A stretch of 8,559 bases of DNA. Origin: a bacterium. Lineage in GTDB: Bacteria > Chloroflexota > Dormibacteria > Aeolococcales > Aeolococcaceae. The notes below the pieces were generated by a model, which was not told the DNA's origin, did no database searches, and saw nothing but the letters and a program-made list of their open reading frames with translations. Each line of letters starts with the position of its first letter. Position 1 is the stretch's first letter. The DNA lies in the NCBI GenBank assembly GCA_021850405.1, contig JAJZMA010000261.1:1-8559 (forward strand), read 5' to 3'. The position numbers were made by a program, and so were the translations under genes. Positions 265 to 8,531 of the stretch are shown one piece after another.

Positions 265-1632
265 CTACGCCGAAATGATCACCGGAGTACCAAGTGGTGT
301 CCATCCATACGCCCAGCTCATTATCGGGGTAGGCGTCTGCACGCATCCATGGCTGGCATCTGGGCCATTCAGGCTGCCGGGCCCAAACTGGGAGGGTGGT
401 TCCCAGGGTGCGTCATGAATGTAGTAACCACCCACATCAAACTCCATCACCCAGTGCACCCAGCTTGGATAGTAGTAGAAGGGAGAGCCCAGGGGCCACG
501 GTGATATGAACTCGTATGGACTCTGCTTGTCAAATATGTGAAAAGTTCCAGTTGGGGTGCGAAGCTGGGCCATACCTGTGGTTACCGGAGTTGCTGCAAC
601 CTCACAGCCTTTGTCATAGAAGATCATCTCCTGCAGCGACAGGTTAATGGTGATTACCTTTCCACCACCAACCGGGTGATTACATACATTAGCCGCAAGA
701 TCAGCTGCCACCTGTGTTTTCAGTGCAGCGGCAGACTGTTCCACAGAGGTCAGCTGTGCCGCGGTGGAAGCTGCTGTAAGGGCTGCCTGAATAGCACCAT
801 AACGGGAAAGCTCAGATCCCCCTCCTGGCGTCCCCTCTGCGGCAGCCTGGTCGACAAGCGGCATCAGTGCCTGCACCACTGCGGTTGCCGTGCCATTCTG
901 GTCAATGAGCGTCTGCTCGCTTCCTACGGCGCTCTGCAGCTGGGCAGACAGAGCAGTACCAAGCCCTCCTGCAGCAAGCACTGACTTTAGCTGTGCTGCG
1001 AGCGAAGGCAGATTCCCGGTAGAAAGCCCCTCTGCCTGTGCCGTCGCAAGCACAGAATTGGCTTGCCCAAGCACGCCAGTGACACCCCCTGCCGCTGCCA
1101 GTCGGGCAGCTGCCGCAGCCTTTGCCGAGGCAACGGTATGCCGTGCTGCTGCGATGGTAGTATCCCAGCGCTCGCCCAGAAGGGAAAGCTGTCTTGGGGT
1201 GCCAGCCGCAGCCAGTTCTGACTGCCAGTCTGCTGTTGCTGTCACGTAATTACGGGGAAGCCAGCTGCTATTTGCCTTTTCGAACGAGTGCCAGGAGGCG
1301 AGCGCCGCCAGGTCCTGCCTCCTCGCAGTCTCATCCAGCTGTGTATAAATGGTTTGCGCCTTCACCTGGGTGGCATTCAGCATGCCGTCTGGCTGTGCAG
1401 TGATCCAGAGTGGAGACCACCAGGGAAGCTGCGCCTTATCCATCTGGTCCAGCAACGGCACAACCTGGGCCGGACTGGCTCCCTGGCTCTGGTCTCCAGT
1501 TAGCTGCTCGCGCACAAGGGTTGCATCCCTTGCCCACTGGGCGGAGCGGACTGACCCTATGCCTAGATCTGCGGCACCCGCGACCAGGAGTAGGCCAGCC
1601 AGGGAGAGCGCTACCAACCTGCCCTTATGCAT
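265..1632 (-). CDS. Membrane-anchored L,D-transpeptidase (YkuD domain)
   Basis: 455 residues. YkuD-family enzymes form or remodel 3-3 peptidoglycan cross-links, or attach proteins to peptidoglycan, through a cysteine acyl-enzyme outside the membrane. Residues 1-25 are a positively charged start plus a hydrophobic stretch, so a signal peptide or anchor. Residues about 30-315 are alanine-rich, helical and repeat-like, probably a stalk crossing the wall; I recognise no known domain there. The catalytic domain is about 325-455: H406 in YYIHDAPW, then SHGCVQTP with the nucleophile C430. The usual residue after HGC-V is Asn or Arg, and here it is Gln. Two further cysteines (C317, C343) flank the start of the domain and could form a disulfide. 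The ATG at 1632 is preceded by GAGGA nine bases upstream. The gene lies downstream of the hydrolase but probably has its own promoter in the AT-rich spacer. The family call is firm; the substrate is unknown. Confidence 0.9.
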   Translation of the reverse strand: MHKGRLVALSLAGLLLVAGAADLGIGSVRSAQWARDATLVREQLTGDQSQGASPAQVVPLLDQMDKAQLPWWSPLWITAQPDGMLNATQVKAQTIYTQLDETARRQDLAALASWHSFEKANSSWLPRNYVTATADWQSELAAAGTPRQLSLLGERWDTTIAAARHTVASAKAAAAARLAAAGGVTGVLGQANSVLATAQAEGLSTGNLPSLAAQLKSVLAAGGLGTALSAQLQSAVGSEQTLIDQNGTATAVVQALMPLVDQAAAEGTPGGGSELSRYGAIQAALTAASTAAQLTSVEQSAAALKTQVAADLAANVCNHPVGGGKVITINLSLQEMIFYDKGCEVAATPVTTGMAQLRTPTGTFHIFDKQSPYEFISPWPLGSPFYYYPSWVHWVMEFDVGGYYIHDAPWEPPSQFGPGSLNGPDASHGCVQTPTPIMSWAYGWTPLGTPVIISA

Positions 1633-1740
1633 TCACCGAGTCCTCAATAGTCAAAAACCCTGCCTTCCGGATATACCAGATCCATACACATATTTATACA
1701 CACTGGTAACGAAGATAACGGCCCAGACCCTGATCCAGTT
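1633..1740 (-). promoter_or_regulatory. AT-rich spacer with probable promoter of the L,D-transpeptidase gene
   Basis: This 108-base spacer is clearly more AT-rich than the flanking genes. On the minus strand it contains TATAAA (1698-1693) and an extended -10-like TGGTATATC (1678-1670). Neither has a convincing -35 hexamer at the usual spacing. The leader then carries GAGGA ahead of the ATG at 1632. Promoter function is inferred from composition and position. Confidence 0.35.
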
Positions 1741-2634
1741 TCAGACCGGAGCCGACAGCACCACCCCTCTGGCCTCCGCTTCGCCAAGGAAGGTCTCTAT
1801 CTGCCTGGCAGTCCAGCCTGGGTTCTCATGGAAAAACAGATGGCCTGCTCCCGGCTCTACTGCCAGGCGAGAGCCGGTGATCTGGTCCGCGAGCAGGCTT
1901 GCGTTCTCCACTGGAACGACCAGGTCCTGACCGCCATGCAGTACAAGAGTTGGGCACTGTATGCTCGCCAGTCCGGAAAACGGATCGGCAGCCCGTGCAG
2001 CATTGTACTGCGCTGAAAACGTAAGCCCGCGCACAGGGTGCGCAAGTCTCTCTGCCACGTGTGCTTCCAGCAGGTCTGGCTGCCCCAGCCGAAAACGCTC
2101 TGAATACAGGACCGTTGTCGCCCGCCGGTAAGCCTCCTCCGGGGTGTGCGCCCCACGCCCCCGCAACGCATCATCTATCTCATCCGGTGGGGCAACTCCA
2201 TGTGCATACCCTGGATGAGTGCACCCCAGAATGAGTGCGCTCACCATCCCGGGATGCCGGATGGCAGCATACTGGGCGACGAGCCCACCCATGGAGAAGC
2301 CAGCGACAACAGCCCGTGAGAGACCCATGGCACCAATGAGACGAGCAACGTCATCGCCCATCTCCTCCATCGAAAATACCTGGGGCAGGGGGGAAGAGGC
2401 TCCAATACCTCTGGAGGCCATCGCGATCAGCATAAAATCGCCTTCGAGATTTTTGAACAGGGTCGCAAACACAGCTGATGACGTTCCCAGTCCAGGGATA
2501 AAAAGCAGCGTCCGATCCATCCTGTTCCCAGAGACTGCAACCGACAGGTGGACATCTCCACCGATCTCCACATTCCGGATTTCCTGGATTCTCTGGCCCT
2601 TCTGGCTCCTGGCATCCACAGCGTCCAACCCCAT
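1741..2634 (-). CDS. Alpha/beta-fold hydrolase
   Basis: 297 residues, the usual size of a stand-alone alpha/beta hydrolase. The order of elements is canonical: oxyanion-hole region FIPGLGTSS (45-53), RGIGAS (75-80) in place of the common RGxGxS, nucleophile elbow GFSMGG with S114, a lid region about 140-220, HGGQD with acid D237, and GAGH with base H265. No signal peptide, so cytoplasmic. The fold is shared by esterases, enol-lactonases, haloperoxidase-like and C-C bond hydrolases, and the sequence does not decide among them. The ATG at 2634 has no Shine-Dalgarno; a TANNNT box 7 bases upstream would suit a leaderless mRNA. It is divergent to rsmE, with starts only 13 bases apart. The catalytic triad looks complete. 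The specific substrate is unknown. Confidence 0.88.
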   Translation of the reverse strand: MGLDAVDARSQKGQRIQEIRNVEIGGDVHLSVAVSGNRMDRTLLFIPGLGTSSAVFATLFKNLEGDFMLIAMASRGIGASSPLPQVFSMEEMGDDVARLIGAMGLSRAVVAGFSMGGLVAQYAAIRHPGMVSALILGCTHPGYAHGVAPPDEIDDALRGRGAHTPEEAYRRATTVLYSERFRLGQPDLLEAHVAERLAHPVRGLTFSAQYNAARAADPFSGLASIQCPTLVLHGGQDLVVPVENASLLADQITGSRLAVEPGAGHLFFHENPGWTARQIETFLGEAEARGVVLSAPV

Positions 2635-2647
2635 GGTTCATACTGTA
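2635..2647 (-). promoter_or_regulatory. Candidate -10 box for leaderless transcription of the hydrolase
   Basis: On the minus strand TACAGT (2647-2642) matches the TANNNT -10 pattern and is followed by 7 bases before the ATG at 2634. That spacing would place the transcription start at or next to the A of the start codon. No Shine-Dalgarno precedes this ATG. The -35 region, inside rsmE, is not recognisable. The divergent rsmE start is equally crowded, so its promoter must lie inside the hydrolase coding sequence. Confidence 0.3.
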
Positions 2648-3406
2648 ATGGCTTTGGCCCGCCTCCTGATTCCGCCCGATGCCCTGGAGCAAAACCAGAT
2701 TAATATCCGGGGGCGCGACGCACTCCACCTGGCTGGACCGCTCCGTATGCGGCCGGGCCAGAAGCTGCATGTTTATGCCAGCCACACCGGCACCGACTAC
2801 CTCATCTGCCTGACAGCCGTAGCGCCAGACCTGGTCCAGGGAGATATAGAAGAGGAAACAGCTAAGCCAGATCAGCTGGATCCCCAGCCAGTTGTCCTCC
2901 TCCAGGCCATCCTGCACTCAGACATGGAACTGACGGTGGCGGCAGCTACTGAGCTTGGGGTCGAGGAGATAATCCCCGTTCTGACAGGGAGAAGCCTTAC
3001 GTCTGCAACAGAGAAACGGCACAAGCAGGTCACCCGTTGGCAGAAGACTGCGGCAGATGCAGCAGCTACCAGCTGGCGCACCCACATCCCGGTGATACTG
3101 CCGGTTATGACCCTTGAAGAAGCGCTCAAGCGGCAGAGCCCTACCTCCATCATTGCCTGCCACGTCCACCCCGCCACCCGACCCCTGACAGAGACCGTTC
3201 CCGCCAGCGGCGCTATCTCTCTGGTGATTGGACCAGAGGGAGGGCTCGCTCCACCGGACGTTGCGCTGCTCGAGAAATATGGGGCAGCATTTTCCCATCT
3301 TGGAAACCGCCCCATGCGAGCCAGGGTTGCGGCCCCACTGGCTCTAGCCCTGGTTCGGCAGGTTACCGGGGGATGGAAAGAAGCGCCAGAGGAGCTGGAG
3401 GACTAG
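2648..3406 (+). CDS. rsmE: RsmE-family 16S rRNA (uracil1498-N3)-methyltransferase, divergent
   Basis: 252 residues, close to the usual RsmE length. RsmE methylates N3 of U1498 in 16S rRNA with S-adenosylmethionine. An N-terminal PUA-like part (1-60, with ALHLAGPLRMRPGQ at 25-38) precedes a C-terminal SPOUT knot: TELGVEEIIP (101-110), VIGPEGG (193-199) and LGNRPMR (218-224). It is unusually divergent. The usual LRTETA loop reads MRARVA (223-228), the ERS after the ELGV strand is GRS, and the EAxxQxxR helix reads DAAATSWR. ATG 2648 is preferred because MALARLLIP matches the family start; ATG 2633 would overlap the divergent hydrolase. No clear Shine-Dalgarno. The rsmE-HIT order matches the conserved dnaJ-rsmE-HIT-phoH neighbourhood of related phyla, though dnaJ and phoH are not beside it here. 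Confidence 0.85.
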   Translation: MALARLLIPPDALEQNQINIRGRDALHLAGPLRMRPGQKLHVYASHTGTDYLICLTAVAPDLVQGDIEEETAKPDQLDPQPVVLLQAILHSDMELTVAAATELGVEEIIPVLTGRSLTSATEKRHKQVTRWQKTAADAAATSWRTHIPVILPVMTLEEALKRQSPTSIIACHVHPATRPLTETVPASGAISLVIGPEGGLAPPDVALLEKYGAAFSHLGNRPMRARVAAPLALALVRQVTGGWKEAPEELED

Positions 3407-3411
3407 GACAG

Positions 3412-3437
3412 ACCCGGGCAAGTGCACTTGCCCGGGT
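3412..3437. terminator. Perfect 26-base palindrome after rsmE
   Basis: The arm ACCCGGGCAAGTG is followed directly by its exact reverse complement, with no unpaired centre. In RNA it would fold as an 11-bp GC-rich stem with a TGCA loop. It begins 5 bases after the rsmE stop codon. No T-tract follows, so it may be a GC-type terminator, a 3'-end stabiliser or a dyad protein-binding site. Confidence 0.5.
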
Positions 3438-3465
3438 GCCTCCCCGATAACCTGATGAATACAGT

Positions 3466-3488
3466 CCGCCATCCATGGCGGAAGTTTT
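3466..3488 (+). terminator. Hairpin with T-tract between rsmE and the HIT gene
   Basis: CCGCCA pairs with TGGCGG around a TCCA loop (3466-3481). It is followed by AAG and TTTT (3485-3488). This is a short classical intrinsic-terminator layout, about 60 bases past the rsmE stop and in tandem with the larger palindrome. It implies that the HIT gene has its own promoter in 3489-3574, where I cannot pick out clear hexamers. Confidence 0.4.
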
Positions 3489-3574
3489 ACTCTAGAAAGA
3501 AGTGATGTTACAGCTACCAGAGCCACCCGACCAGAGGCACACGACAGGGCGCTGCGAAGACATGGGAAGCTACC

Positions 3575-3916
3575 GTGTCAGCTGACTGTATTTTCTGTTC
3601 CATCGTGGGTGGACAGCTTCCTGCAACAGTCCGGTATGAGGATGAAAGGCTCCTTGCCATAGAGGATCGAAATCCAGCAGCACCCACCCACCTGCTCCTC
3701 ATCACCAAAGAGCACTTTACCTCGCTAAATACGCTGACAGATACAGCCGCATGGGCTGCCTTTCTGCCAGCAGTGCAGCAGCTGGCGGCAGACACAGACA
3801 GCGCAAGGGGGGGCTACAGGCTGGTAATCAACACTGGAGAAAACGGTGGCCAGACAGTGGGACACCTCCACATGCACTTTCTGGCCAGCCGCCGCCTGAC
3901 CTGGCCACCTGGATAG
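3575..3916 (+). CDS. HIT/HINT-family nucleotide hydrolase
   Basis: 113 residues, the standard size for a HINT-type protein. These enzymes hydrolyse purine nucleoside phosphoramidates and aminoacyl-AMP through a histidine triad. CIFCSIVGGQLPA (5-17) carries the CxxC seen near the N-terminus of many members. NTGENGGQTVGHLHMHFL (about 86-103) holds the histidine triad HLHMH, and the end LTWPPG is typical for the family. No signal peptide; cytosolic. The start is GTG at 3575, supported by GGGAAG five bases upstream and by the conserved MSADCIFC opening. It follows rsmE on the same strand with a 168-base spacer containing terminator-like hairpins, so it is probably transcribed separately. All residues expected of an active enzyme are present. 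Confidence 0.93.
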   Translation: MSADCIFCSIVGGQLPATVRYEDERLLAIEDRNPAAPTHLLLITKEHFTSLNTLTDTAAWAAFLPAVQQLAADTDSARGGYRLVINTGENGGQTVGHLHMHFLASRRLTWPPG

Positions 3917-4172
3917 CCGCGCCGCGACTGCAATGATGCGGAAGGATCCGCGATGGTCCGGCGGCCCAAACAACCGCCCCTCTGGATGGCCTCGAGCCTA
4001 TCCCTCCGCGATGTAGTCCTGGCTGGCGTTTCCTGCCCGAGCGCACACTTTGGCACACAACTCAATTGCAGCCAGGAACACCACACCCTGCGGCAGCTCT
4101 CGAGAAACTGGATCCTGTGCCTTGCCCTGCCATACAGAATCAACCGTGTAGAGCGACCGCGGCGATAGTGTG
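3917..4172. other. Non-coding stretch between the HIT gene and the broken ferredoxin
   Basis: I find no supported gene or RNA here. Long open frames exist on both strands but resemble no family and lack ribosome-binding sites. One of them is the out-of-frame run-on of the broken ferredoxin. A small hairpin, GCGGA AGGA TCCGC (3938-3951), lies 22 bases past the HIT stop and could help end that transcript, but it lacks a T-tract. The stretch may be decayed sequence linked to the pseudogene. Confidence 0.4.
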
Positions 4173-4382
4173 TCACTCCCTGGTACTCCTCAATGAATAG
4201 CGCACGGCGTGGACAGGCTGCAACAAAGCGCTCTGATGCAAGGACGCTGTCTTCTCCTTCAACTGGCCGCGGATATACAACCAGATAACGCCAGCGATCC
4301 AGCGCAATAAACTGGGAGCGATGAGACAGCAGATCCCATAGCCACGGCACTGGGCCATGGCAACAACCAGGCGCCTGCGCAT
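4173..4382 (-). pseudogene. Frameshifted paralogue of the 3-cysteine ferredoxin
   Basis: This is a second copy of the ferredoxin gene at 5331-5540, alignable along its whole length and using the equivalent TGA stop. It opens MRRRLVVAMAQCRGYGIC, which gives the first two cluster cysteines (C12, C18). One base is missing near 4312, where the intact gene has AAGTTCATT and this copy has CAGTTTATT. In the shifted frame the match resumes: FIALDRW, then VAACPRRALFIEE with the third cysteine. One extra base near 4180 restores the original frame before the stop. The ORF actually translated is therefore still 69 codons, but its middle is scrambled and the third cysteine is lost. Good purine-rich Shine-Dalgarno sequence (GGAGGGGAGTGGAG) precedes the ATG, so it could still be translated. 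A dead gene is the simplest reading; a sequencing error would need two separate indels. Confidence 0.75.
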
Positions 4383-4386
4383 CTCC

Positions 4387-4438
4387 ACTCCCCTCCGCGA
4401 ACCCCATCCCGGTTCTACTACTGCTATATTTACCGACA
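4387..4438 (-). repeat. Dispersed leader-like repeat, copy B
   Basis: This is the partner of the segment at 6-56 and sits directly 5' of the broken ferredoxin on the minus strand. The similarity runs from the Shine-Dalgarno side through to TGTCGGTA at the far end, where it stops. The CACTGAAC tandem units seen at 48-101 are absent here. On the plus strand it contains TATATT (4425-4430), a possible -10 for the DUF4232 gene, without a good -35. Confidence 0.45.
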
Positions 4439-4515: not shown

Positions 4516-5121
4516 ATGCGAAGCTGGCTTTCGGCTCTGACGGTAGCGGCACTGGGAATTCTCATGGCCGCCTGCGGGTCTGCAACCCCAGCGCATCACG
4601 CGCCAACCTCCCCGCCCACTCATGCGCCCAGTCCCAGTTCAACGTCATCTGTGGGTGTGACGGGCAGTGCCAGCGCCACCCCCAGTGCCGGCTCGGCGCT
4701 CACCAGCTGCACAACCAGCGGCCTCACTGCAGCCCTTGTTAATGCACAGGGCACCGCTGGCAGCGTCATCTACGACCTGAAGTTCACGAATGTGAGTTCC
4801 GGAAGCTGCACCCTGTTAGGCAACCCGGGAGTGTCCATGGTCACAGGTCCGGCTGGCGCCCAGGTCGGGGCGGCCGCCACCCTCGTCAACAGCGCGAGCG
4901 CAAGCACTGTGACCCTGTCGCCGGGACAGTCGGCTAGCGCGGTTCTGCAGATAGTAGAGGCGGGCAACTACCCGGCGTCATCCTGTGGCATGGAGAGCGT
5001 GGCCGGCCTGCGGGTGTACCCGCCCAGCCAAACGTCGGCAATCTTCATTCCGGCGAGCAGCCTGCAGGGTTGCCGCAATTCCAGCACCAAGCTCATGCAG
5101 GTTGGGCCGGTCCAGAGCTGA
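4516..5121 (+). CDS. DUF4232-domain lipoprotein
   Basis: 201 residues. The N-terminus is a lipoprotein signal peptide: Arg at 2, a hydrophobic run to residue 18, and lipobox LMAAC with the lipidated C20. Residues 21-63 are a Pro/Ser/Thr/Ala linker of low complexity. Residues about 64-197 form a DUF4232 domain: SCTTSGLTA, YDLKFTNVSSGSCTLLGNPGVS, then VTLSPGQSASAVLQIVEAGNYPASSCG and GLRVYPPSQTSAIFIP. Four domain cysteines probably form two disulfides, as in the family. Exported and anchored to the outer face of the membrane. DUF4232 proteins are common in Actinobacteriota and related phyla and have no settled function. The gene stands alone on the plus strand between two minus-strand ferredoxin copies and converges on the redox operon. 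No partner can be inferred from position. Confidence 0.88.
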   Translation: MRSWLSALTVAALGILMAACGSATPAHHAPTSPPTHAPSPSSTSSVGVTGSASATPSAGSALTSCTTSGLTAALVNAQGTAGSVIYDLKFTNVSSGSCTLLGNPGVSMVTGPAGAQVGAAATLVNSASASTVTLSPGQSASAVLQIVEAGNYPASSCGMESVAGLRVYPPSQTSAIFIPASSLQGCRNSSTKLMQVGPVQS

Positions 5122-5330: not shown

Positions 5331-5540
5331 TCACTCCTTGCACTCCTGAATGAAGAGCGCACGGCGCGGACAGGCGGCAACAGCGCGCTCTGCCGCAAGG
5401 ATACTTGCTCTGCCTTCCATAGGCAGTGGATCCACAATCGGATACCCCCAGCGATCCAGCGCAATGAACTTGGGAGCGATGAGCGAGCAGATCCCATGCC
5501 CACGGCACTGCGCCATGACAACAACCAGGCGCCTGCTCAC
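5331..5540 (-). CDS. Small ferredoxin, three-cysteine [3Fe-4S] type
   Basis: 69 residues from GTG 5540. Ligand pattern C12-x5-C18 and C57-P58, with the conserved surroundings CRGHGIC, IAP, LDRWGYP (28-34) and AVAACPRRAL (53-62). Three cluster cysteines with the fourth position unfilled match [3Fe-4S] ferredoxins of the kind that accompany cytochrome P450s and flavoprotein dehydrogenases in actinobacteria. C67 near the end is extra and probably not a ligand. The start codon overlaps the stop of the NuoF-like gene (GTGA), with GAGAGAG 6-7 bases upstream; GTG 5546 is an alternative. It is the last gene of the operon and is probably translationally coupled. The likely role is to carry single electrons to or from the NuoF-like flavoprotein or the membrane haem b subunit. 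A decayed copy lies about 1 kb away. Confidence 0.85.
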   Translation of the reverse strand: MSRRLVVVMAQCRGHGICSLIAPKFIALDRWGYPIVDPLPMEGRASILAAERAVAACPRRALFIQECKE

Positions 5541-6859
5541 CGCCACTCTCTCGCCAGCTCAGGAATCGGAAATGTGCGCCCCATGGCAGAGCCATGGCAC
5601 GGGGAACCACCTGCATGATGCGTAGCATCTGACGCAAATACGTCGAGTGCGGAAAGGGCCAGGAGAACAGCCCCGTCCGGATGTCTGCAGCTCCCCCGAC
5701 CGTAAAGAAGCGTGGCGTGCTTCCTGACTAGCTGCACCACGCTTTCTGGCGCTCGGGCCTGACTCAAGCCCGTCATCGCCTTTGCGAGCCCGGTCAGGCC
5801 AAAGACACACGGACCACACTGCTGCGCACTCTCCCGGGCGAAATACTCAAGAATGGCGGCCGTTTCAGCAATACCACAGTGCTCAGACGAAAGCACTCCC
5901 ATAAAACCGCAGCCGAGTGAAACTCCTGCAGCAGCAAACAGATCCTGTGCAATACCAAGATCAGCCGCCTCCACACCAGCCATCCACGTGCCAGCATATC
6001 CCCCAAGCAACAGGGAACGAGCCTCTACCGTACCCGGTGCGAACGCTTCCAGCAACGCTCCTATGGTCGTAGGAGCAGTCAACTCTACTACCAGGCCCGC
6101 AGCGGGCACATCACCGCCCAGGGTGACCAGAACAGAACCTGGTGACTGGTCAGTGCCACAGCCACGAAACCAGTCGGCACCGTTGCGAACGACAAGGGCC
6201 AGATGGGCAACGGTCTCAAGGTTATGCACGATAGTGGGAGAGTCGCCAATTGTGCCTGTTCCGGCAACTGGGTGTCTCGCGGGCCTCGCCTCCCTGCCAC
6301 CAACAAACGAAACCACAGCACTCGACTCCCCAGCGACATACCGGTCAGGGCCAAGCGCAAAGGTGATGGGTGGCATCCGCGAACCCGCGGCCGCCCTGCT
6401 CTTCACTGCTTCCAGCAGAGCGCGATACATCTCTATGGAGCGCCTATGCAGATAGATGACAACCCGGTCTGCTCCTGCGAGGAATGCTGCAGCGACAGCG
6501 CCATCAACAACCAGGTGGGGACGGAAAGTGGCCAGCATGAAATCCTTGCGACTGGCCGGCTCACTCTCTGCTCCGTTAATGATGACAGTCGGAATGCCCT
6601 CACGCCTGTGCAAGGCTGAGATCTTGTCGGCAACCGGAAAGCCAGACCCTCCCCTTCCTCCAAGCCCGCTCTGCCGCACCACCTGAAGCAGATCCTGGCG
6701 AGAACTGAGTGCCGCATGGATTGAACCCAGCCTTGCAAGGTGCTCTTCCCAGCTTTCTGCATGCAGCGGGCCGGCGAACAAACGGGGTGGAGGGGCATAT
6801 GGCATGAAGTGCGGTCGCAACACAGAAAGAGGCAAGTCCGTAGTTACCCCACCAGACAT
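5537..6859 (-). CDS. NuoF-like flavoprotein (FMN, SLBB and Fe-S domains)
   Basis: 440 residues, homologous to the NADH/FMN subunit of complex I but part of a different system. Glycine-rich FMN loop GLGGRGGSGFPVADK (65-79), NGAESEPASRKD (95-106), RYVAGESSAVVSF (173-185) and PTIVHNLETVAHL (208-220) mark the flavin domain. An SLBB-like part lies at about 240-290. The cluster domain has C348, C351 and C391. In NuoF the motif is ESCxxCxxC plus a distant Cys; here the first is Ala (ESAQQCGPC), which leaves three ligands unless C328 or C421 helps. The second Glu of the GEE motif is Ser179, and the aromatic positions around the NADH adenine look lost. ATG 6859 is favoured by AAGGA five bases upstream; GTG 6862 also fits. 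It overlaps the membrane gene upstream and the ferredoxin downstream. The donor could be NAD(P)H or something else. Confidence 0.85.
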   Translation of the reverse strand: MSGGVTTDLPLSVLRPHFMPYAPPPRLFAGPLHAESWEEHLARLGSIHAALSSRQDLLQVVRQSGLGGRGGSGFPVADKISALHRREGIPTVIINGAESEPASRKDFMLATFRPHLVVDGAVAAAFLAGADRVVIYLHRRSIEMYRALLEAVKSRAAAGSRMPPITFALGPDRYVAGESSAVVSFVGGREARPARHPVAGTGTIGDSPTIVHNLETVAHLALVVRNGADWFRGCGTDQSPGSVLVTLGGDVPAAGLVVELTAPTTIGALLEAFAPGTVEARSLLLGGYAGTWMAGVEAADLGIAQDLFAAAGVSLGCGFMGVLSSEHCGIAETAAILEYFARESAQQCGPCVFGLTGLAKAMTGLSQARAPESVVQLVRKHATLLYGRGSCRHPDGAVLLALSALDVFASDATHHAGGSPCHGSAMGRTFPIPELAREWR

Positions 6860-7563
6860 CACGGTCCTTCTCTTGCTGGTTCCAGCACATCATCTGGCGG
6901 CAGGAAATCTCCCGTCACAAAAAAACGCGAAAGCAGCAGGAGCACTACTGCCAGTCCGGTCACTAGATACATTGGTCGCAAAACAGGAGTGTCGCTTCCC
7001 GCGAGTACGCCATGAAACCAGGCAAGTGCAAAGACTGCAACAGCTCCGTGATGGATACGCACCCAGCTACTTCCGAACAGCCGACCCGCCCATGCAGCTG
7101 AACCAAAAATGATTACTCCCAGGTAGAGAGATAGCGTTCCAAGCGCTATCGCAAAGGGCCGGTAGGCTGCTGCGCCCGGAACAAATGCCCCCATCCAGCC
7201 GACGTGCGCAAAGGAGTCTGCGCTGAGTGCCACCACATGGACCAGCGTAAACACCACAACACCAAACGCAAGCAGCCGGTGGATTTGAAGCTGAGCCTGA
7301 GGAGCAATGACCGGATGAATCCTCCTCCATGGATGGCGGAACCAGATTCCGGAAAAGACCAGCAGAGTAAGGTCCAGATAGGCGGCAATGCCAAAGCCGC
7401 GTCCGGTGATCCACGGAAACATCCGGGAATGCACCAAGGGGAAAAAGATGCTTCCCAGCAGATTTCCCAGCACAAGGGCAAGGAGCACAGCTCCTGCACC
7501 AAGCACCATTCCACCTACTTGCCTTGCCCAGAAGGACGGAGGGGGATTGGGTGCAGGTCTCAT
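6859..7563 (-). CDS. Ferric-reductase-like transmembrane di-haem b protein
   Basis: 234 residues with six predicted helices, about 16-41, 56-74, 97-114, 137-157, 173-187 and 198-215. Histidines H95 and H109 bracket helix 3, and H171 (or H172) and H184 bracket helix 5. This two-by-two arrangement, with 13-14 residue spacing, ligates two stacked b haems in the ferric-reductase-like (NOX/FRE/MsrQ) superfamily. There is no FAD or NAD(P)H domain, so electrons must come from and go to partners. The natural candidates are the NuoF-like protein and ferredoxin encoded next. ATG 7563 forms an ATGA overlap with the ApbE-like stop. Longer reading from GTG 7710 would add residues that only duplicate the other frame of the ApbE gene. 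The role is inferred as transmembrane electron transfer, with direction and acceptor unknown. Confidence 0.85.
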   Translation of the reverse strand: MRPAPNPPPSFWARQVGGMVLGAGAVLLALVLGNLLGSIFFPLVHSRMFPWITGRGFGIAAYLDLTLLVFSGIWFRHPWRRIHPVIAPQAQLQIHRLLAFGVVVFTLVHVVALSADSFAHVGWMGAFVPGAAAYRPFAIALGTLSLYLGVIIFGSAAWAGRLFGSSWVRIHHGAVAVFALAWFHGVLAGSDTPVLRPMYLVTGLAVVLLLLSRFFVTGDFLPPDDVLEPAREGP

Positions 7564-8531
7564 GATGGAGCCCGCCACAGGATAAAGCGCTCCATTGCAG
7601 AGGTCACGTGCATGCGGCCCGTATCCGCAATCCATAGGGCTGCCAGCCCCTGCTGATCTGCGAGCCTGCCTATTGCCCTGGCTCCCTCCAGAAAGAGACT
7701 CTTGCTCCACACCTCTGCCACTGCCGGATCACTGTGAACGACAGTAACAGACGCCAGCCCCCTACCTCCCGGCCTCCCGGTAGCGGGGTTGAGCAGGTGG
7801 TGGACCGGGCGGCTGTCAAGCTGCCAGCGGCGGAGACGAGTAGAAGACGTTGCCACCGCCAGATCCCGCACTCCCAGAACCGCCAGCGGTGCCGGTCCCC
7901 CCCCAGGGTCTTCCACTCCAATCTGCCAAGGGCCACCATCCGGAGCTGATCCGCGGCATGCACAATCACCGCCCGCAGATATCAGGTATGAGTCTGCTTC
8001 CCCCTCCCGGGCGAGCAGGCTCGCGGCCCATCGTATGGCTAACCCTTTTCCAATGCCTCCCAGCTCCACTGGATGGGGACCGAGCAGTACCATGCTGCTG
8101 GAATAGCGAAACCTGGGGCGCCAGGGCCGGCCCCGCAGGCTAGTCATCGGGCGACTCCATGCTCCAGGCAATTCCAGCACCGCACCGGATGAGAGGGTTT
8201 CTGTATAACCCAGGGACAGAAGTGCTGTCAGAACCCGGGGGTCAAAGCGACCGTGGGTGCGCTGGTAGGCCCAGGAAGCCTCCAGAAGCGCCTGAAACAG
8301 GATAGGCGGGGCAAAATGCCAGCGGAACGGCACCCGGTTGATCCGCATGAGTGGACTCTCCGGGCGAAATCGCGTGCAGATCACATCGACTGTGTCAAAC
8401 ACCGAAAGAGCTCTCCCCATGACCCTCTCGGTCCAGCCTGCATCGTGGCTTGGCCAGGCGCGAATCATGATCGGGGACGCCATAGCCTTGCTGTAGCCAA
8501 ACAGCTCACCATGCCGCCACTCAAGGGACAC
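7560..8531 (-). CDS. ApbE-like FAD:protein FMN transferase
   Basis: 323 residues from GTG 8531. ApbE enzymes split FAD and attach FMN to a Thr/Ser of partner proteins such as NqrC, RnfG and FMN_bind-domain proteins. Visible family motifs are TRFRPESPLMRIN (53-65), GRFDPRVLTALLSLGY (94-109), LGGIGKGLAIRWAA (157-170), SAGGD (185-189), PWQIGVEDP (201-209) and HHLLNPATGRP (244-254). The usual HHxIDPxTG has Asn for Asp here, and the metal-binding ADxxxT near the C-terminus reads AEVWSK (E273, K277). No signal peptide, so it acts in the cytoplasm or on a co-exported partner. GGAG six bases before GTG 8531 supports this start, but the frame stays open to the right edge, so a longer protein is possible. 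First visible gene of the operon. No flavinylation target is seen in the window. Confidence 0.85.
   Translation of the reverse strand: MSLEWRHGELFGYSKAMASPIMIRAWPSHDAGWTERVMGRALSVFDTVDVICTRFRPESPLMRINRVPFRWHFAPPILFQALLEASWAYQRTHGRFDPRVLTALLSLGYTETLSSGAVLELPGAWSRPMTSLRGRPWRPRFRYSSSMVLLGPHPVELGGIGKGLAIRWAASLLAREGEADSYLISAGGDCACRGSAPDGGPWQIGVEDPGGGPAPLAVLGVRDLAVATSSTRLRRWQLDSRPVHHLLNPATGRPGGRGLASVTVVHSDPAVAEVWSKSLFLEGARAIGRLADQQGLAALWIADTGRMHVTSAMERFILWRAPS

Follow-up and report, generated by a model that had tools for sequence, protein, structure and literature searches.

An ApbE-fold protein without the catalytic aspartate as a possible FAD-holding partner of a haem b cytochrome in a four-gene operon

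The window analysed here is the whole of contig JAJZMA010000261.1 (8,559 nucleotides) from the Dormibacteria genome GCA_021850405.1, an assembly of 1.46 Mb that is 65% complete. On its minus strand lies an operon of four genes, for an ApbE-like protein, a cytochrome b, a NuoF-like flavin mononucleotide (FMN) and iron-sulphur (Fe-S) protein and a small ferredoxin. A sequence-only reading had described these genes as joined by overlaps, and the gene coordinates and Pfam matches bore this out: the ApbE-like and cytochrome genes share an ATGA overlap, the cytochrome and NuoF-like genes a TGATG junction, and the NuoF-like and ferredoxin genes a GTGA overlap. The ApbE-like gene starts with the GTG at 8531, and a homologue of 62% identity (P0121) begins at the same residue, as 'MSLEW'. 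The contig stops 28 bases past this gene and its upstream neighbour lies outside the window. The features of the operon are as follows (FAD, flavin adenine dinucleotide; pLDDT, predicted local distance difference test).

7560..8531, minus strand: ApbE-fold protein of 323 residues without visible signal peptide or catalytic Asp, predicted FAD-holding subunit (PF02424, E 1e-42; model; residue analysis)
7713..7715, minus strand: codon of Glu273, at the site of the Mg2+-binding Asp of FMN transferases (FmnB Asp301; alignments)
7701..7703, minus strand: codon of Lys277, at the site of Thr305 in FmnB numbering (Lys in 121/121 rows, the best 120 of 1982 homologues and the window)
6859..7563, minus strand: MsrQ/FRD-type cytochrome b of 234 residues with six hydrophobic segments and no FNR domain (PF01794 below cut-off; conserved His; hydropathy)
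5537..6862, minus strand: NuoF-like FMN/Fe-S protein (PF01512 and PF10589; alignments; model pLDDT 87)
5331..5540, minus strand: small ferredoxin, C12-x2-H15-x2-C18 ... C57-P (Fer4_15, PF13459)

The AlphaFold model of the ApbE-like protein (pLDDT 92) matched the ApbE structures of E. coli, Salmonella and T. maritima, as well as FmnB, at a TM-score of about 0.8; the structure alignments had 20 and 44 rows. Sequence alignments placed Glu273 at the Asp301 position (Vc Asp285) and Lys277 at the Thr305 position, and showed that the FAD-pocket residues equivalent to Lys190, Ser257, Arg262 and His273 are kept, as Lys162, Ser229, Arg234 and His245. The same pattern was found in the best 120 of 1982 homologues taken together with the window protein (P0122, among them, is a fragment of identical sequence): all 121 rows had Glu and Lys at the two changed positions, the equivalents of Lys190, Ser257 and His273 were kept in 121/121 and that of Arg262 in 120/121. 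Published work describes Asp301, Ser257 and His273 as the conserved centre of Listeria FmnB (PMC8906456; review PMC12052999). Asp301 is the residue there that binds the two Mg2+ ions at the diphosphate of FAD, and activity was lowered or abolished when residues of the Mg site were replaced by alanine (PMC8906456). Judged from its sequence, the window protein lacks this Mg2+-binding catalytic Asp of FMN transferases. The sequence-only reading had named it a flavin-attaching enzyme; the ApbE family and fold stand, and the description survives as a family name only, since the catalytic Asp is absent. Other residues are class-specific, with Cys52 and Cys190 (and nearly Cys192) conserved in the Glu/Lys operon class and a Cys at the residue-269 position in 97% of a class that has Asn in place of the Asp. 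No signal peptide or lipobox was visible in the window protein, and none was seen by eye in 25 rows of Asp-type relatives (one of them an N-terminally cut fragment), for which reason we rejected the missing signal peptide as proof of a loss of function.

To relate this residue to gene neighbourhood, 98 ApbE open reading frames (ORFs) were compared in 39 genomes, out of 43 searched for the FMN_bind domain (PF04205), which had been chosen for carrying a NuoF-like gene; the remaining four of the 43 were apparently relatives already covered by the larger set described below. From the 39 genomes, 95 PF02424 regions were taken and one short fragment was left out. All 26 ApbEs with an FMN_bind gene within 2.5 kb had the Asp, as did all 23 with a cytochrome of FRD+FNR type nearby, each of which also lay beside FMN_bind. 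Conversely, the Asp was found in none of the 51 ApbEs with a NuoF-like gene within 2.5 kb (37 Asn, 13 Glu and 1 Ser, the last in an apparently out-of-frame segment), two of which, both Asn, had no FRD gene that we could find, and in none of the 57 with an FNR-less FRD nearby and no FMN_bind. Thirteen ApbEs had none of the tested neighbours, and seven of these had Asp. A larger set, which shares loci with the first (30 places as loci and 56 regions, G047:C122 and G000:C11 included; five weak or partial ones left out), gave Asp/Thr in 23 of 24 FMN_bind-linked ApbEs, the other being truncated, and no Asp among 95 NuoF-like-linked ones (74 Asn/Thr, 16 Glu/Lys and 5 unreadable). The 51 unlinked ORFs of that set comprised 28 Asn/Thr, most of them fetched with only 1.5 kb of flank, 16 Glu/Lys, 2 Asp/Thr, 1 Ser/Val and 4 unreadable. 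In the genomes examined, this one residue (Asp versus Asn/Glu) tells the two kinds of ApbE apart in every place that has a diagnostic neighbour. A tree of 66 rows, with at most 18 rows per class, placed the non-Asp classes on one side of a branch with support of 100/99. The conservation of the changed residues across phyla is a stronger point than the counts.

Three further ApbE sequences were noted in these comparisons. A cut-off fragment with the Asp/Thr signature lies at a contig edge in the window's own genome (L209, contig C181, 3357-3641), which probably has a canonical ApbE too. Two long ORFs, of 688 residues (L302, 3464-5530) and 581 residues (L294, 3509-5254), have a C-terminal ApbE domain with Ser or Thr for the Asp and none of the tested partners nearby.

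The cytochrome matched Ferric_reduct (PF01794) at 18.7 bits, below the cut-off of 28. It has four His in two pairs, His95/109 and His171/184, which are 96-100% conserved in the alignment, and Pfam found no FNR (FAD/NAD-binding) domain fused to it within its 234 residues, so that its earlier description as a di-haem b protein without a flavin domain of its own holds. Also conserved are Trp51, Arg55, Asp116 and Asp191. The two Asp each lie seven residues after the second His of a pair and, by the positive-inside rule, would be on the outer side of the membrane.

Pairing of ApbE with such a cytochrome was not confined to the four-gene setting. Each of the 16 Glu/Lys ApbEs that have no NuoF-like gene beside them adjoins an FRD gene, recognised with a custom profile, and 15 of the 16 lie immediately upstream of it. 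The neighbours of these pairs by Pfam included a SUOX-type molybdoprotein (L183, L191) and DUF1501 and DUF1800 proteins (L174), and other loci looked alike by eye. Based on its occurrence without the NuoF-like protein and ferredoxin and near SUOX-type or DUF1501/DUF1800 genes, the ApbE-cytochrome pair looks like a reusable module whose inputs and outputs may be exchangeable.

The conservation of the whole gene set was followed from the NuoF-like protein, for which an alignment scan of species genomes gave at least 561 confirmed matches; the named loci are the best 80 of these. Among the 52 of the best 80 that had enough flank, all four genes were present in 35, the cytochrome in 47, the ApbE in 43 and the ferredoxin in 43; the script behind these counts was strict and misses some overlapping ORFs. 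The four-gene set was found mostly in records titled Actinobacteria, Chloroflexi and Dormibacterota, and at some loci (e.g., L076, L085) the ApbE gene is downstream of the ferredoxin gene instead. The sequence-only reading, which proposed a combined transmembrane redox system, held that this would be refuted if the four genes did not occur together in other genomes; they do, and such a role is plausible, although the half of the proposal that concerned a flavinylated acceptor is unsupported (see below). Within 9 kb, a cluster of genes of histidine-kinase size was seen in 41/80 loci and one of response-regulator size in 33/80, and Pfam bore out both identities at L034 and L035, the two loci tested.

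The NuoF-like protein has the Complex1_51K (PF01512) and NADH_4Fe-4S (PF10589) domains, and its model (pLDDT 87) has the fold of NuoF and HydB. Cys329, Cys349, Cys352 and Cys392 were invariant in the alignments. Of the Cys in the ESCxxCxxC motif of NuoF, which we take to be ligands of cluster N3, the first was absent in 20/20 NuoF-like rows (18 Ala, 2 Ser) and is Ala in the window protein. Cys329 could substitute for it as a cluster ligand; that Cys329 is a new ligand was rejected, as HydB and mycobacterial NuoF have a Cys at the aligned position. The CGEE of NuoF reads AGES in the window, a change of Glu-Glu to Glu-Ser. We assume that the Glu of this motif governs the choice between NADH and NADPH, for which a literature search gave no usable support. 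Compared to complex I NuoF and HydB, the window protein shares the FMN and 4Fe-4S domains and the fold, whereas it differs from NuoF in the missing first Cys and in AGES, and neither NuoE nor NuoG was found among the nine window ORFs covered by the Pfam scan. The ferredoxin fits the single-cluster, three-Cys pattern CX2XX2C...CP, with its three Cys conserved in 108-109 of 110 rows and His15 in 64 of 110. A second, diverged ferredoxin copy lies at 4170-4390 on the minus strand of the window, with 82% DNA identity to the operon copy; it is split over two frames, sits beyond an opposite-strand DUF4232 gene and looks like a duplication remnant. That gene (4516-5121, plus strand), between the two ferredoxin copies, encodes a lipoprotein-like DUF4232 protein.

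If the ApbE-like protein attached FMN, a target would be expected, and the sequence-only reading had placed a flavinylated acceptor outside the window and suggested looking upstream of the ApbE-like gene in related operons for FMN_bind proteins or others with an ApbE target motif. FMN_bind is the usual target of ApbE enzymes, and no match to it was found in the window's genome (65% complete). FMN_bind was matched in 19/61 genomes of a search among relatives and in 26/43 genomes carrying the NuoF-like gene; this second search covered the genomes of 43 of the 80 named loci, many of them incomplete, and the 17 without a match included isolates of 7.6 to 10.1 Mb (Nocardia seriolae, a Micromonospora sp., Phytohabitans flavus and P. 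suffuscus). With an FMN_bind profile built from 14 proteins, nothing matched in the flanking DNA fetched for L001-L111 (at most 10 kb, with many contigs shorter), among which L002 is the other NuoF of the window's genome. An FMN_bind partner just beyond the contig end was rejected on the basis that none was seen beside the NuoF-like loci fetched elsewhere. At L112 and L113, NuoF-like and FMN_bind genes are 4 to 8 kb apart; the FMN_bind gene of L113 has its own Asp-type ApbE, and the ApbE match at L112 is that of the NuoF-like operon, which lies on this fragment as well.

The FMN_bind loci themselves had a different composition. Another ApbE was identified by the first query in 11 of the 14 that were fetched, with none at L116 and L118. 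A profile that was not made for such proteins detected an upstream FRD of 474-486 residues in 4/23 FMN_bind-linked cases, and better profiles placed an FRD+FNR protein near 23 of 26 FMN_bind-linked ApbEs; the FRD of L117 has FRD and NAD-binding domains by Pfam. At L114, L115, L117, L121 and L123 the ApbEs beside FMN_bind have no visible signal peptide, although a hydrophobic segment is present at the N-terminus of their presumed targets.

The search for a target motif was equally negative, as ApbE-target-like motifs occurred in 4 of 724 neighbouring genes versus 3 in shuffled proteins, which is no enrichment. In Micromonosporaceae and Streptomyces a small, N-terminally anchored, acidic or Pro-rich protein lies directly upstream of ApbE (L049, about 7920-8330; L043, about 7900-8230; L048). 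The C-terminal TGGS/TGAS of such proteins was not counted as a target motif because it appears to stem from a Shine-Dalgarno sequence and the ATGA overlap. Together, the lack of FMN_bind in the window's genome, in the L001-L111 flanks and in 17 of 43 genomes, the lack of motif enrichment and the lack of the Asp leave the flavinylated acceptor without support.

Based on these findings, we tentatively favor the interpretation that the four products make up a membrane electron-transfer complex, and that its Asp-less ApbE fold does not attach FMN and instead holds FAD that feeds a two-haem cytochrome b. Electrons would pass from NAD(P)H through the FMN and then the Fe-S cluster of the NuoF-like protein to the ferredoxin, then to FAD bound in a cytosolic ApbE-like protein, from there to the inner and the outer haem, and finally to an extracytosolic or quinone acceptor. 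The isoalloxazine ring in ApbE is reported to stay exposed outside the pocket (review PMC12052999), which would suit electron transfer, and in E. coli the difference between binding FAD and hydrolysing it comes down to a single residue (PMC4767422). The wild-type E. coli ApbE, Ftp, offers a partial parallel, as an FAD-binding ApbE fold with no FAD hydrolysis on its own, as we propose here; however, Ftp has retained the Asp that binds metal (given as Asp280 in the metal table) and attaches flavin to RnfG, whereas the window protein lacks the Asp (PMC4767422). More broadly, and with slightly less assurance, we speculate that the ApbE fold, by losing its catalytic metal site, was recruited to FNR-less haem b cytochromes as a permanent subunit that holds FAD for electron transfer, with either NuoF-like and ferredoxin inputs or molybdoenzyme-type neighbours.

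The closest working analogy would be MsrPQ with Fre. E. coli MsrQ is an FNR-less FRD that receives electrons from the flavin reductase Fre and passes them to the molybdopterin-centred MsrP, which shows that a cytochrome of this type can be supplied by a flavin protein that is not part of it (PMC11031084), as predicted for the operon. The difference is that Fre has an FNR fold where the operon would use an ApbE fold, and that there is no MsrP in the window. In NOX and ferric reductases, by contrast, the FNR domain is fused to the FRD. The FRD+FNR/FMN_bind/ApbE clusters (e.g., L117), which occur in some of the same genomes, share with the operon an ApbE and a cytochrome of the same superfamily, but have the NAD-binding domain fused to the cytochrome, an FMN_bind protein, and an ApbE with Asp and Thr. 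Clusters nearer in composition have been described: Méheust et al. 2021 (PMC8238504) reported MsrQ-like clusters that combine PF01794 with apbE, 31 of which also have a NuoF-like protein (PF10589). The NuoF-like input that the sequence-only reading saw in a flavinylation-like system was already on record for those 31 clusters. They share the PF01794-type cytochrome, the ApbE-family gene and the NuoF-like protein with the window operon, but are reported typically to include an FMN-binding domain gene, which was not found adjacent in the operon's relatives, and the operon differs from them in having a ferredoxin in the unit and an ApbE without the catalytic Asp. A 2024 follow-up discusses MsrQ cytochromes and DUF4405 (PMC11334425), and the available portions of these two papers contain no mention that we could find of an Asp-less ApbE or a ferredoxin in such clusters.

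Three other explanations were weighed. That the ApbE-like protein continues to transfer FMN, as the sequence-only reading proposed, using a modified metal site and acting on an unrecognised target, is unlikely in our view, although it agrees with the classification of such clusters as flavinylation systems (PMC8238504), with the ApbE fold and with the kept equivalents of Lys190, Ser257, Arg262 and His273, and Glu and Asn can be metal ligands. Loss of the equivalent of FmnB Asn216, which stabilises Asp301, had been considered as a further sign of inactivity and was dropped; it says little in the window's clade, as Asn is present in only half of the Asp-type ApbEs examined. What lowers the standing of a transferase is the division between FMN_bind-linked ApbEs (Asp in 26/26) and NuoF-like-linked ones (0/51), along with the lack of an FMN_bind partner or motif enrichment. 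We consider it improbable that the four genes are functionally split, the NuoF-like protein and ferredoxin serving cytosolic enzymes such as P450s and the ApbE and cytochrome forming a separate unit. ApbE-FRD pairs do occur without the NuoF-like gene, some NuoF-like and ferredoxin loci are missing ApbE or FRD, and the CX2HX2C...CP pattern of the ferredoxin is that of P450 partners; the overlaps joining all four genes in the window and the conservation of the set in other phyla nevertheless argue against this division.

A further explanation, which seems to us rather doubtful, places the ApbE-like protein on the outside of the cell, where it would carry flavin and take over from FMN_bind as the electron outlet, with the NuoF-like protein and ferredoxin standing in for the FNR domain. 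It draws on ORFs in which ApbE and FRD appear together: both profiles matched one ORF in 34 of 120 listed proteins, in a length-restricted search made with a run-on ORF and with loose domain boundaries, and precomputed Pfam domains gave 27 of 120. In two Phytohabitans species no stop codon separates ApbE from FRD, the positive loops of five-segment FRDs would put their N-terminus outside, P0270 opens with a segment resembling a signal anchor, and a hydrophobic stretch precedes the domain in 3/79 Asn-class ORFs, the starts of which are uncertain. However, an internal ATG is kept at the FRD start in the Phytohabitans and P0270 junctions, making separate translation possible, none of the 27 Glu/Lys ApbEs whose N-terminus is complete has a hydrophobic segment ahead of the domain, and the window cytochrome has a sixth, N-terminal segment. 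In addition, a SUOX-type enzyme could take electrons from the outer haem directly, as MsrP does from MsrQ. The fused ORFs were for their part rejected as proof of a complex, given the internal start and the conflict in topology.

Several observations weigh against our favored reading of ApbE as a cytosolic FAD-holding subunit. As the non-Asp ApbEs form one clade, the many counts reflect few independent events. In one case an Asp-bearing ApbE beside FMN_bind is accompanied by an FRD without a detected FNR. The Asn class keeps Thr305, and Glu or Asn might still bind metal. No NAD(P)H site is known for the ApbE fold, so that its FAD would depend on the ferredoxin, through a contact that is itself predicted. 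ApbE is absent from 9/52 well-flanked NuoF-like loci and is thus not always needed, and some FRD partners match no Pfam family (L183, the one tested) and were found only with the custom profile. Lastly, the cytosolic side of ApbE is a prediction, given that Asp-type ApbEs of these relatives also show no signal peptide by eye and that the hydrophobic stretches and ApbE-FRD ORFs described above exist; if the latter are real single chains, ApbE would be outside, replacing FMN_bind.

Elsewhere, positions 265-3916 of the window contain genes for an L,D-transpeptidase (YkuD), an alpha/beta hydrolase, a PF04452 RNA methyltransferase and a HIT-domain protein, which are apparently unrelated to the operon.

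In the literature searched, no paper on ApbE as a non-transferase subunit was found. If our interpretation is correct, the operon would encode a flavocytochrome b of a kind not found in the literature searched, from genes that are commonly named 'FAD:protein FMN transferase'. An ApbE fold acting as an electron carrier would explain how FNR-less cytochromes are supplied with electrons, and would provide a testable input route through the NuoF-like protein and ferredoxin. Many 'FMN transferase' genes in Actinobacteria and soil relatives may not attach flavins, and counts of ApbE as a marker of flavinylation would then overstate flavinylation.

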